Below are positions 2,391 to 6,013 of a stretch of 6,013 nt of DNA, piece by piece. Location of the stretch: NCBI GenBank assembly GCA_903930515.1, contig CAIYYW010000339.1:1-6013 (forward strand), given 5' to 3'. The notes beneath the pieces were generated by a model. That model saw only the letters and a list, made by a program, of their open reading frames with translations. It was not told the origin of the DNA and did no database searches. Made by a program: the position numbers and the translations under genes. This DNA is from an uncultured delta proteobacterium (GTDB lineage Bacteria; RBG-13-61-14; DRUE01). Each line of letters opens with the position of its first letter. The stretch's first letter is position 1.

Positions 2391-2404
2391 TTCAAATAAA
2401 CCTT

Positions 2405-2412
2405 AAAAGGAG
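2405..2412 (+). promoter_or_regulatory. Ribosome binding site of the DUF2804 gene
   Basis: AAAAGGAG ends 6 nt before the ATG at 2419. This strong Shine-Dalgarno match fixes the start, and with it the twin-arginine N-terminus of the protein. Confidence 0.8.
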
Positions 2413-2418
2413 CGAACC

Positions 2419-3570
2419 ATGGACCGACGATTGTTAATCAAGAGCGGGGCAGTTGGCGCGCTGGGAATGGCGGCCGGGAGGATGGCGATGGCGGGAAAAA
2501 ATTTGCCGGACTATATGCCGATTGTCAAAGCCAAAATGGAAAGCGGCGGTTATCTTCCTCATTATCCGGAGCGCGAGCTGACCGAGCCGGTTATGCTTTG
2601 CGATGATATGGGGAATCTGAATCCCAAGGCAATCGGCTGGTCGCGGGCGCCGCTGGTGACCGCCAATCTCAGCAATCATTGGGGCCGGAAGAAGAAATGG
2701 AATTTCTGGAACTGGATCAGCCCGGATTTTGTCTTTTCCGTCACCCTCTCGGATATTGATTACGCGGCCTTCTGCGCGGCCTCATTCATTGACTTTGCGA
2801 CCAAGGAAAACTTCAGCGCGATTTCCATCCACCGGGGCGGAAGTCTCGCGATGCCGGAAGAGGTTGAAAAGAGCGTTGGCTTTGAAAGCGGCGCGATCAA
2901 ATATTCCTTCAATCATCTGGGCGATCACATCCAGGTGAATTTTCAATGCAAGGATATGAAGGGCAAGCCGGCAAGCGCGGATTTCATCATCCATAAGCCC
3001 AAGGGCCACGAGACTTTGAACATTGTGGTGCCCTGGACCAATCAACGGTTCCAGATGAACTCCAAGCATAACACCCTGCCGGTGGAAGGTTTTGTCAAGA
3101 TTGGGGATAAAAAACATTTGATGAATCCGGAAGAATGTAATGGCGTGCAGGATTTTGGAAGGGGGATCTGGCCCTATCATTCCATCTGGAACTGGGGAGT
3201 GGCAACCGGCAGGCAGGACGGGAATATGATCGGCATCAATCTGGGCGCGAAATGGACCACCGGAACCGGCAGCAATGAAAACGGGATCTGCTTTAACGGC
3301 CGGCTCTACAAGGTGATGGAAGACCTGATTTGGGAATATGATCCCAATAATTGGATGAAGCCCTGGCATATCCACGCGGACTACTCCAAAATGATTGACC
3401 TGACCCTCACCCCCTTTCATCAGCAAGCCACCAAGCTGAGCCTCGGGGTGATGAGCACCGGCGGGGTGTGCTGCTTCGGCAAATGGAACGGAATGATCCG
3501 GTTTGAAGGCAAAGAGGTTCAGGTGCGCGACCTGACCGGATGGGCGGAGGAGTTCGCGCATAGGTGGTGA
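2419..3570 (+). CDS. DUF2804 family protein with a Tat-type signal peptide
   Basis: This is a complete 383-residue protein of the DUF2804 family (Pfam PF10974), whose biochemical role is not established. The N-terminus reads RRLLIK at residues 3-8, then a small hydrophobic stretch of Gly/Ala/Leu/Met and an AMA site at 23-25: a classic twin-arginine signal, with predicted cleavage after A25. Family-type motifs follow: LNPKAIGWSR (67-76), NLSNHWGRKKKWNFW (83-97), DFGRGIWPYHSIWNWG (245-260), the Asn/Gly-rich GTGSNENG (282-289), and a C-terminal CFGKWNG with a final DLTGWAEE near residue 372. The many Trp/Asn residues would suit a carbohydrate- or lipid-binding cleft, but that is inference. A vicinal cysteine pair sits at 351-352. 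It is the first gene of an operon, 15 nt before a GH127 gene, so a partner role in envelope glycan metabolism is likely. The family call is solid; the function is unknown. Confidence 0.85.
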   Translation: MDRRLLIKSGAVGALGMAAGRMAMAGKNLPDYMPIVKAKMESGGYLPHYPERELTEPVMLCDDMGNLNPKAIGWSRAPLVTANLSNHWGRKKKWNFWNWISPDFVFSVTLSDIDYAAFCAASFIDFATKENFSAISIHRGGSLAMPEEVEKSVGFESGAIKYSFNHLGDHIQVNFQCKDMKGKPASADFIIHKPKGHETLNIVVPWTNQRFQMNSKHNTLPVEGFVKIGDKKHLMNPEECNGVQDFGRGIWPYHSIWNWGVATGRQDGNMIGINLGAKWTTGTGSNENGICFNGRLYKVMEDLIWEYDPNNWMKPWHIHADYSKMIDLTLTPFHQQATKLSLGVMSTGGVCCFGKWNGMIRFEGKEVQVRDLTGWAEEFAHRW

Positions 3571-3571
3571 A

Positions 3572-3578
3572 GGGAGGA
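3572..3578 (+). promoter_or_regulatory. Ribosome binding site of the GH127 gene
   Basis: GGGAGGA lies 7 nt before the ATG at 3586, immediately after the stop codon of the preceding gene. It supports this start, which also gives a clean Sec signal peptide, and co-transcription of the pair. Confidence 0.8.
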
Positions 3579-3585
3579 AAACGGC

Positions 3586-5580
3586 ATGAAACTTTTTCCG
3601 TTGGGATGGTTGCTGGTTTTCGGAATGGCGATTTCAGTTCAAGCCGCCGGCCAAATGACTCCTTACGCAAAGCTCAGCCAGTTAAGCCTTTCTCAGGCTG
3701 AAATCAAGGGCGGGTTCTGGGGAGAGCGGCGGGAGCAGTTATGGAAGACGGTGCTGCCTTATCAATGGACGCAATTGGAATCGCATCACGATGTTGACAA
3801 TTTCCGCATCCTGGCCGGGGAGAAGGATGGCGTTCATCTGGGGCCGGTCTATCTTGACTCGGACCTTTACAAATGGCTGGAGGCCGCGTCCTATCTGAGC
3901 GGCAAGCATCCGCAGGATCAGTGGCTTTCGGACCGGATCACCGAGTTGACCGGATTATTCGGCAAGGTCCAGATGCCGGACGGATATTTGAACACCTATT
4001 ACCAGACCTTTGCTCCGGACCGGAGATGGACCAACCTGCTGATGAACCACGAGTTGTATTGCTCCGGCCATTTGATTGAGGCCGGCTGCGCGCTTAAAGA
4101 AGCCACCGGCAAAGACGACCTGTTCAAGATCGCGACCAGGCTCGCGGACCAGATCAGCTCGGTTTTCGGGCCTGGGAAAAAGCAGGGGGTTCCGGGCCAC
4201 GAGGAAATTGAGCTCGCGCTGGTCCGTTTGTACCGCCAGACCGGGGACAAAAAATATTTGGAGATGGCGAACTTTTTCATCGGGCGGCGCGGCCGCGCCA
4301 ACAAGTATCCGCAGGCGATGATCAAATCCCTGAAGGACCAGTCCGAGCTGGCCAGGATCGTGAACGAAAAACGAAGGCCCTGGCTGGAAAAGGCTCCCAA
4401 GGCCAAAAGCGCGGCCGGGTATATCATCGGCGGGACCTTGTTTGACCCGCGCATCTTCACAAATTTTTACACCGGCAAATACTTCCAGGATGACAAGCCC
4501 TTCGTGGATCAGACCACGGGCGTGGGACACGCGGTGCGGGCGATGTATTATTTTACCGGGGCCGCGGACCTTTATCTTGAGACCGGGGACGCCGCGCTTT
4601 TTCAGACCGCGCAAAAAATCTGGGACAACACCATCAGCAAACGAACCTACCTCACCGGCGGGATGGGGTCGCTCGGGGGCATTGAAGGCTTCGGCCGGGA
4701 CTATGAGCTTCCCAACCGCTCTTACACCGAGACCTGCGCCGCGATCGGATCCTTCTTCTGGAACTGGAGGATGCTCCGCGCAACCGCGGACGCCAAATAC
4801 GCGGACCTGATGGAGCGGACCCTTTATAACGGGATCCTGCCCGCGATCTCGCTGGACGGGACCAAATATTTTTACCAGAACCCGCTCACCGGCAACGGCA
4901 AGGACCAGCGCCAACCCTGGTACGGGACTGCCTGCTGCCCGCCCAATATCGCCAGACTGTTCGGGTCGCTGGAGCGGTATCTTTACTCCGAGAGCGACGA
5001 AGGCGTCTGGGTCCACCAATACATCAGCGGCGCGGCCAGGTTCAGGAATGGAAAAGTCAATCTTGAATTGGAAAGCGGTTTCCCTTTCAGTGGAGATGTC
5101 AGGATCAAGATCAGCGCTCAAAAACCGGGATCGTTCGCAGTGATGCTCCGCATTCCGGCTTGGGCGGACAAGGCCGCGGTCGCGGTGAATGATGAAAAAC
5201 TGAGCAATATTCTGGCGGGAACCTATCTGAAAATTCAGCGCGAATGGAAAACCGGGGATGAGATCACGCTCAATTTTCCAATGGAAATCCGGCTGATTGA
5301 TTCCCCGCCCGAGGTCAAGAGCAACCGGGGAAAGGTGGCGCTAATGGCCGGACCCCTGATTTATTGTTTGGAGGAAAAGGATACTCCGGGGATCAATGTC
5401 CACCAGGCGGTGATCTCAAAATCGGGAAAGCTGGAAATGGCAAAACGCGATGACTTGCTGGGCGGGGTGATGACGGTGAAGGGCAAAACCCTGGCGGGAA
5501 AAGAATTTATTGCGATTCCATATTACGCCTGGTCCAATCGCGGGCCGTCCCGGATGGAGATCTGGATCAAGGCGCGGTAA
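3586..5580 (+). CDS. Exported GH127 (DUF1680) beta-L-arabinofuranosidase-like glycoside hydrolase
   Basis: A complete 664-residue enzyme of glycoside hydrolase family 127, whose characterised members release terminal beta-L-arabinofuranose with a zinc-bound cysteine nucleophile. Residues 1-20 form a Sec signal (charged start, LLVFGMAIS core, cleavage near VQA). The (alpha/alpha)6 catalytic domain shows DSDLYKWLEAA (91-101), PDGYLNTYY (131-139), HELYCSGHLIEA (155-166), PGHEEIELAL (203-212) and GVGHAVRAMYY (312-322). By alignment from memory with Bifidobacterium HypBA1 (Glu322, Glu338, Cys340, Cys417, Cys418), the acid/base is E367 in IEGFG, the zinc ligands are E382 and C384 in TETC, and C450-C451 in GTACCPPN supply the nucleophile (C450) and last ligand. 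All are intact. A beta-sandwich region follows (about 490-605, with LRIPAWAD and GPLIYCLE). Length is usual or slightly long for the family; residues about 237-296 look like an insertion. Substrate is unproven: DUF1680 relatives may act on other sugars. Confidence 0.92.
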   Translation: MKLFPLGWLLVFGMAISVQAAGQMTPYAKLSQLSLSQAEIKGGFWGERREQLWKTVLPYQWTQLESHHDVDNFRILAGEKDGVHLGPVYLDSDLYKWLEAASYLSGKHPQDQWLSDRITELTGLFGKVQMPDGYLNTYYQTFAPDRRWTNLLMNHELYCSGHLIEAGCALKEATGKDDLFKIATRLADQISSVFGPGKKQGVPGHEEIELALVRLYRQTGDKKYLEMANFFIGRRGRANKYPQAMIKSLKDQSELARIVNEKRRPWLEKAPKAKSAAGYIIGGTLFDPRIFTNFYTGKYFQDDKPFVDQTTGVGHAVRAMYYFTGAADLYLETGDAALFQTAQKIWDNTISKRTYLTGGMGSLGGIEGFGRDYELPNRSYTETCAAIGSFFWNWRMLRATADAKYADLMERTLYNGILPAISLDGTKYFYQNPLTGNGKDQRQPWYGTACCPPNIARLFGSLERYLYSESDEGVWVHQYISGAARFRNGKVNLELESGFPFSGDVRIKISAQKPGSFAVMLRIPAWADKAAVAVNDEKLSNILAGTYLKIQREWKTGDEITLNFPMEIRLIDSPPEVKSNRGKVALMAGPLIYCLEEKDTPGINVHQAVISKSGKLEMAKRDDLLGGVMTVKGKTLAGKEFIAIPYYAWSNRGPSRMEIWIKAR

Positions 5581-5686: not shown

Positions 5687-5717
5687 AAAACGGCCGGGAT
5701 TTGGTCCCGGCCGTTTT
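5687..5717. terminator. Bidirectional intrinsic terminator between GH127 and groL
   Basis: CGGCCGGGA (5691-5699) pairs perfectly with TCCCGGCCG (5705-5713) around a TTTGG loop, extended by AAAA/TTTT on the flanks to a 13-bp stem. On the plus strand it is followed by TTTTAATTT, and on the minus strand by TTTTTTATTTT, the better U-tract. It sits about 107 nt after the GH127 stop and 24 nt after the groL stop, so it can end both convergent transcripts. Nothing else convincing was seen in 5581-5686. Confidence 0.93.
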
Positions 5718-5741: not shown

Positions 5742-6013
5742 TCAGTACATCGGCGGCTGGGGCATATGTCCACCGCCACCGCCCGGGAAGGATGACTTGT
5801 CATCCGGCCTTTCCGCAATCGCGCATTCAGTGGTAATCAGGAGCGCGGCCACGCTGGATGCGTTCTGGAGGGCGCACCTGACCACTTTGGTCGGGTCAAT
5901 GATCCCGGCCTTGACCAGGTCTTCATAAACCATCGTCTGCGCGTTCAGGCCGAAGCCGCCCTTGTTGTTCTTGATCTTGTCCACGGCAATGGATCCGTCC
6001 ACGCCCGCGTTCT
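5742..6013 (-). CDS. groL: Chaperonin GroEL, C-terminal fragment (5' end missing)
   Basis: The frame enters from the right edge and ends at TGA 5742-5744, giving the last 90 codons of the 60-kDa chaperonin, the ATP-driven double-ring protein-folding machine of the cytosol. Diagnostic motifs in order are [50 protein letters not shown] and AIAERPDD, all typical of the equatorial domain end. A GTG at 6000-6002 lies inside this conserved stretch and is not a start. The tail is unusual: in place of repeated GGM it reads [15 protein letters not shown]. No groS is visible here because the upstream side is cut off. The gene converges on the GH127 operon and shares its terminator. Confidence 0.97.

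Follow-up and report, generated by a model that had tools for sequence, protein, structure and literature searches.

The window analysed here is an entire contig of 6,013 bases, part of a genome in 401 contigs that is evidently a metagenome assembly. It carries two adjacent, co-directional genes, the first of which (2419..3570, +) encodes a 383-aa protein of the DUF2804 family. Its ATG start is preceded by a ribosome-binding-like AAGGAG (2404..2418, +), and the gene opens with a Tat-type signal region, MDRRLLIKSGAVGALGMAAGRMAMA (2419..2493, +). A further in-frame ATG (2488..2490, +), which follows a GGGAGG by 6 nt, could yield a product without the signal. A 15-nt intergenic gap containing GGGAGG (3571..3585, +) leads to the second gene (3586..5580, +), which starts at an ATG and encodes a 664-aa GH127 glycosidase with a Sec-type signal and the motifs IEGF, YTETC and ACCPPN. 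The GH127 gene and groEL point towards each other, and a 13-bp hairpin (5687..5717), listed on the minus strand and with a near-symmetrical stem, lies between them as a likely terminator. The open reading frames, ribosome binding sites and 15-nt gap described in an earlier note on this DNA thus hold, with exact coordinates and with AAGGAG and GGGAGG ahead of the two ATGs.

The surroundings are mixed. A large membrane protein (3-1889, -) weakly resembles PMT-type glycosyltransferases and runs off the contig; a tRNA-Asn(GTT) gene (2064-2139, -) has a near-consensus upstream promoter (TTGACA-16-TATCAT; 2152-2179, -); and the C-terminal end of groEL with its tail (5742-6011, -) is truncated by the contig end. 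Just 5′ of the DUF2804 gene sits a 47-codon ORF (2211-2354) that begins MNKLAVFLPAPGVDRAGLGGKGANLG. This ORF matches no Pfam family and has no convincing homologue in three related genomes; it faintly recalls the N-terminal part of PEP-synthase-like proteins.

Both proteins are intact members of their families, as had been claimed. All three Pfam GH127 domains are present in the glycosidase (catalytic, E = 1e-98; middle, 6e-24; C, 5e-21), together with the Glu and Cys motifs, and the DUF2804 protein matches PF10974 over its full length (E = 3.6e-95; residues 51-383 against profile positions 1-339; 319.5 bits vs a cut-off of 26.9). The best solved relative of the glycosidase is the Geobacillus GH127 enzyme 4qjy (named a β-L-arabinofuranosidase; E = 2e-140), which has the Glu/Cys motifs in common with it: YTETC and ACCPPN in the window align with YAETC and ACCPPN in Geobacillus. 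We take these motifs to hold the Cys3-Glu zinc set with its Cys nucleophile. The two enzymes differ between two matched segments, which are ~55 residues apart in the window protein and ~20 in the Geobacillus protein. A Cys3-Glu zinc site has been described for GH127 (PMC10850190), a family that spans β-L-arabinofuranosidase, aceric acid hydrolase and 3,6-anhydro-D-galactosidases (PMC5698469, PMC10850190). Against the aceric acid hydrolase model (NF049879), the window enzyme scores 438 bits vs an equivalog cut-off of 950. Because the activities of the family vary and this cut-off is missed, the arabinofuranosidase label given earlier is not borne out.

For DUF2804, a PDB sequence search with the window protein and a 46-member profile returned nothing useful, and a Pfam ComGG match (E = 0.002, under its cut-off) was dismissed as chance. 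A structure prediction, which the earlier note had called for, was run with AlphaFold2 from a 46-sequence alignment and gave a confident model (pLDDT 89.8, pTM 0.87), with low confidence at residues 1-26. Structural comparison (Foldseek, VIA-align) points to an AttH/CrtC-type, two-domain calycin fold over residues ~53-383 of the predicted structure (Foldseek E = 6.5e-8). The top VIA-align matches reach Z 20-21 over 261-293 residues, while the next unrelated row stands at Z 5.9; the top fold matches are AttH (2ich), kievitone hydratase (7a0t), Fsa2, Phm7, CghA and the 25-phosphosteroid lyase (9fzn). These proteins would share with the window protein the same fold and, in the profile comparison, collinear D and W..W motifs, whereas identity is just 7-13% and DUF2804 leaves Pfam CrtC unmatched (none of the 46 members). 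In hhalign, the DUF2804 and CrtC-family profiles are collinear over 222 columns, a weak match (E = 2e-4, probability 44%) that sets DFGRG...WNW of DUF2804 opposite DHE...WDW of the CrtC family. The window's genome also encodes a CrtC-family protein.

This fold bears on two proposals of the earlier note. Prenyl hydration and cycloaddition, carried out without cofactors, are the reactions of the characterized AttH/CrtC-fold members other than the lyase, and to our knowledge enzymes of this type need no cofactor; a Tat signal as a hint at a cofactor is therefore not favored. Nor is action of DUF2804 on the glycan itself, as a lyase or otherwise, since the solved fold relatives use hydrophobic substrates of isoprenoid, steroid or polyketide type. 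The 25-phosphosteroid lyase, for instance, is proposed to take phosphate off a sterol side chain (PMC11061730).

From fold and context, we infer an AttH/CrtC-type role for DUF2804. In our preferred reading, to which we give a probability of roughly 40%, it is cofactor-free and either binds a hydrophobic small molecule or acts on one as a hydratase/lyase-type enzyme, and GH127 strips the sugar. Tat would export the folded DUF2804 protein to a compartment that the Sec-exported GH127 enzyme also reaches. There, GH127 would take a terminal sugar off a glycosylated compound, presumably a substrate shared by the two, and DUF2804 would bind or chemically alter this compound or the freed aglycone.

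How far the pairing is kept was examined at several distances, with plain ORFs used for genes, as a composition-based gene caller overlooked many DUF2804 genes; neighbour clustering on shared ORFs was dominated by antisense shadows and dropped. The lineage set consists of three genomes: that of the window, a sister species of the same genus and an order-mate, Deltaproteobacteria bacterium RBG_13_61_14 (contig MGQK01000065.1), whose lineage is presumably ranked as its own phylum by GTDB. The sister species has the end of DUF2804, an opposite-strand gene and GH127, in that order; the intervening gene has 791 codons and no Pfam family (L037:199-2571, -). In the order-mate, DUF2804 and GH127 lie on separate contigs, both products having export-type N-termini. 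The operon is thus not fixed, being interrupted in one relative and absent in the other.

For a second phylum, a scan of named genomes gives a different picture. Three Anaerolineales (Chloroflexota) carry MFS-GH127-DUF2804-GH2 operons (L095, L115, L120), with GH127-DUF2804 gaps of 8-12 nt; a fourth has GH127-DUF2804-GH2 on a contig that stops short of the MFS position (L109), and in a fifth pair, GH127 and DUF2804 are divergent (L085). The GH127 near DUF2804 is the sole GH127 of the genome in genomes G098-G102. As in the window, GH127 and DUF2804 are adjacent and co-directional in the Anaerolineales operons, but the gene order is reversed, MFS and GH2 genes are added, the products have no obvious signal peptides, and both proteins belong to other clades. 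The partners thus appear to share a compartment in both settings, exported here and without obvious signals there. Among 201 Anaerolineales genomes, the relevant GH127 subfamily occurs in 20, and DUF2804 is found in 16 of these 20 vs 34 of the 181 others (Fisher 6e-8, from counts that ignore kinship); it is found in none of the nine genomes with only other GH127 subfamilies. A DUF2804-MFS-GH2 operon occurs in five further Anaerolineales (L080, L088, L102, L105, L110); two of these also carry a prolyl-oligopeptidase-like gene, and several adjoin a divergent hydantoinase-like pair. DUF2804-MFS-GH2 may be the core context and the GH127 form a variant.

The pairing arose independently in this lineage and in Anaerolineales, because the GH127 and DUF2804 trees both part the window pair from the Anaerolineales pair; a single clade of paired GH127s was rejected by the AU test (p = 2e-41). 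The proposed functional link between DUF2804 and GH127 gains support from this recurrence and from the co-occurrence of the subfamily. Restriction to this strain, which had been named as a result that would speak against the link, is true of the operonic pair inside the lineage and false across phyla. The Anaerolineales operons seem to encode a cytoplasmic version of the pairing, accompanied by an MFS sugar importer and a GH2 glycosidase. In both groups, the molecule that DUF2804 binds or transforms is probably a glycoside from which GH127 or GH2 takes the sugar.

Elsewhere, DUF2804 keeps other company. Across bacteria it was found in 31 of 386 genomes, 27 of them from beyond the lineage; two of the 27 encode a GH127, and none has it adjacent. 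The search for neighbours proposed in the earlier note yields adjacency in two independent lineages, that of this strain and Anaerolineales. A search of viral contigs found no relative. Most DUF2804 genes do not lie beside a glycosidase gene, and the remaining neighbours seem related to lipids or CoA, namely acyl-CoA dehydrogenases, a thiolase, carboxylesterases and glycerol enzymes (all identified by eye from sequence, except the carboxylesterases, which are Pfam matches). The literature on DUF2804 is sparse, and we found the family named just in a table (PMC8151288), where the Pseudomonas aeruginosa member PA3342 is among the genes raised by a glycerolipid regulator. PA3342 has the full-length family match in common with the window protein, which differs from DUF2804 proteins of this type by its Tat-type signal, present only in this lineage, and by its GH127 partner. 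Because of the acyl-CoA, esterase, glycerol or solitary contexts and the regulation of PA3342, the DUF2804 family is broader than glycoside metabolism.

The strongest alternative may well be correct: DUF2804, with its AttH/CrtC fold, would serve a general lipid- or fatty-acid-related purpose, its adjacency to GH127 in this strain would be chance, and the Anaerolineales operons would hold a different DUF2804 subfamily with a role of its own. The regulation of PA3342 is consistent with it, as are the loss of the arrangement in the order-mate and its interruption in the sister species; the nearest orthologues, in Binatota and Myxococcota, likewise lack a GH127 gene in their vicinity, and a search of four of these genomes found no GH127 at all. 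Against it stand the 15-nt gap, the strong ribosome binding sites and the matched export of both products to one compartment, as well as the pairing that arose separately in another phylum and the co-occurrence with one GH127 subfamily.

Export of both proteins, as claimed earlier, is borne out by rule-based signals, conserved Tat-type N-termini and the presence of TatC. The DUF2804 N-terminus (MDRRLLIKSGAVGALGMAAGRMAMA-GKN) combines a twin arginine, a core of weak hydrophobicity (Kyte-Doolittle 1.5) and AMA in the c-region, while the GH127 signal core is more hydrophobic and Sec-like (2.2). Tat assignment was made by rule (a twin-arginine n-region, a core of mild hydrophobicity, AxA and a TatC in the host), and the window protein has all of these features, TatC being encoded in 3/3 lineage genomes. 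The Pfam TAT_signal model matches one of the 46 family members, which is not the window protein. Tat-type N-termini are found in all five N-terminally complete DUF2804 proteins of the lineage (the window protein, its orthologue in the order-mate and three proteins from a second line of paralogues) vs 0 of ~108 others; an apparent Tat-bearing protein outside the lineage (L139) was rejected, as its match sits inside the domain. Signal-less relatives start at LPDxxPI, a point that the window's signal region precedes, and the nearest outside relatives (Binatota, Myxococcota; 51-54% identity) mostly start directly at LPDHLPI, about the expected N-terminus of the mature window protein. On the DUF2804 tree, the two Tat-bearing groups are placed apart and a single clade is rejected (p = 5e-7); the signal was therefore probably gained twice in the lineage, although losses may account for the pattern. 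Two Tat changes are scored on a smaller tree with all rows labelled, and one on a larger tree in which unlabelled rows are uncounted.

The calycin-type fold would also suit a non-catalytic protein that serves in the envelope as carrier or shield of a hydrophobic ligand, such as a lipid or aglycone in the periplasm, with GH127 one of several enzymes acting on the cargo, and Tat-type copies do adjoin carboxylesterases and a sulfatase. We regard this as improbable, given that most solved fold relatives are enzymes and that the charged residues R90, K92, K216, D245 and R248 are invariant in the DUF2804 alignment, suggesting more than passive binding. Least probable by far is that ATG 2488 is the true start and the protein cytoplasmic: its upstream GGGAGG and a MAGKNLPDY start resembling the cytoplasmic relatives speak for it, but the first ATG has a good ribosome binding site, the codons before ATG 2488 have coding-type GC by codon position (0.58/0.54/0.75 in the signal region vs 0.31/0.46/0.38 in upstream DNA), and the twin-arginine N-terminus is kept in five lineage proteins, including paralogues without an internal start of this kind. 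The mis-start that had been raised against the Tat proposal is thus unlikely, though the signal is indeed absent from homologues elsewhere. ATG 2488 might additionally yield a signal-less form.

An extended version of our preferred reading, in which DUF2804 is a new AttH/CrtC-fold enzyme family that works with GH127 and GH2 on glycosylated terpenoid- or steroid-like compounds, cytoplasmic in Anaerolineales and in the envelope here after two Tat gains, seems unlikely. The fold family consists of unusual, cofactor-free enzymes, and the predicted fold together with the recurring glycosidase context makes DUF2804 testable as a binding or hydro-lyase-type protein (Pfam or InterPro may already hold a calycin-clan link). 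Because Anaerolineales independently keep both genes together and the predicted fold is that of terpene-type enzymes, a joint role in degrading sugar-decorated molecules also becomes testable. The repeated gain of a Tat-type signal in one lineage would be a neat, self-contained example of an entire family relocating to the envelope.

The second DUF2804 paralogue of the window's genome (G000:C228:19169-20182; L012, L025) has a Tat-type N-terminus, and the next two genes encode carboxylesterases (COesterase) whose own N-termini are signal-like. In G001, a sulfatase comes after the counterpart of this paralogue, and in G002 a carboxylesterase lies near it.
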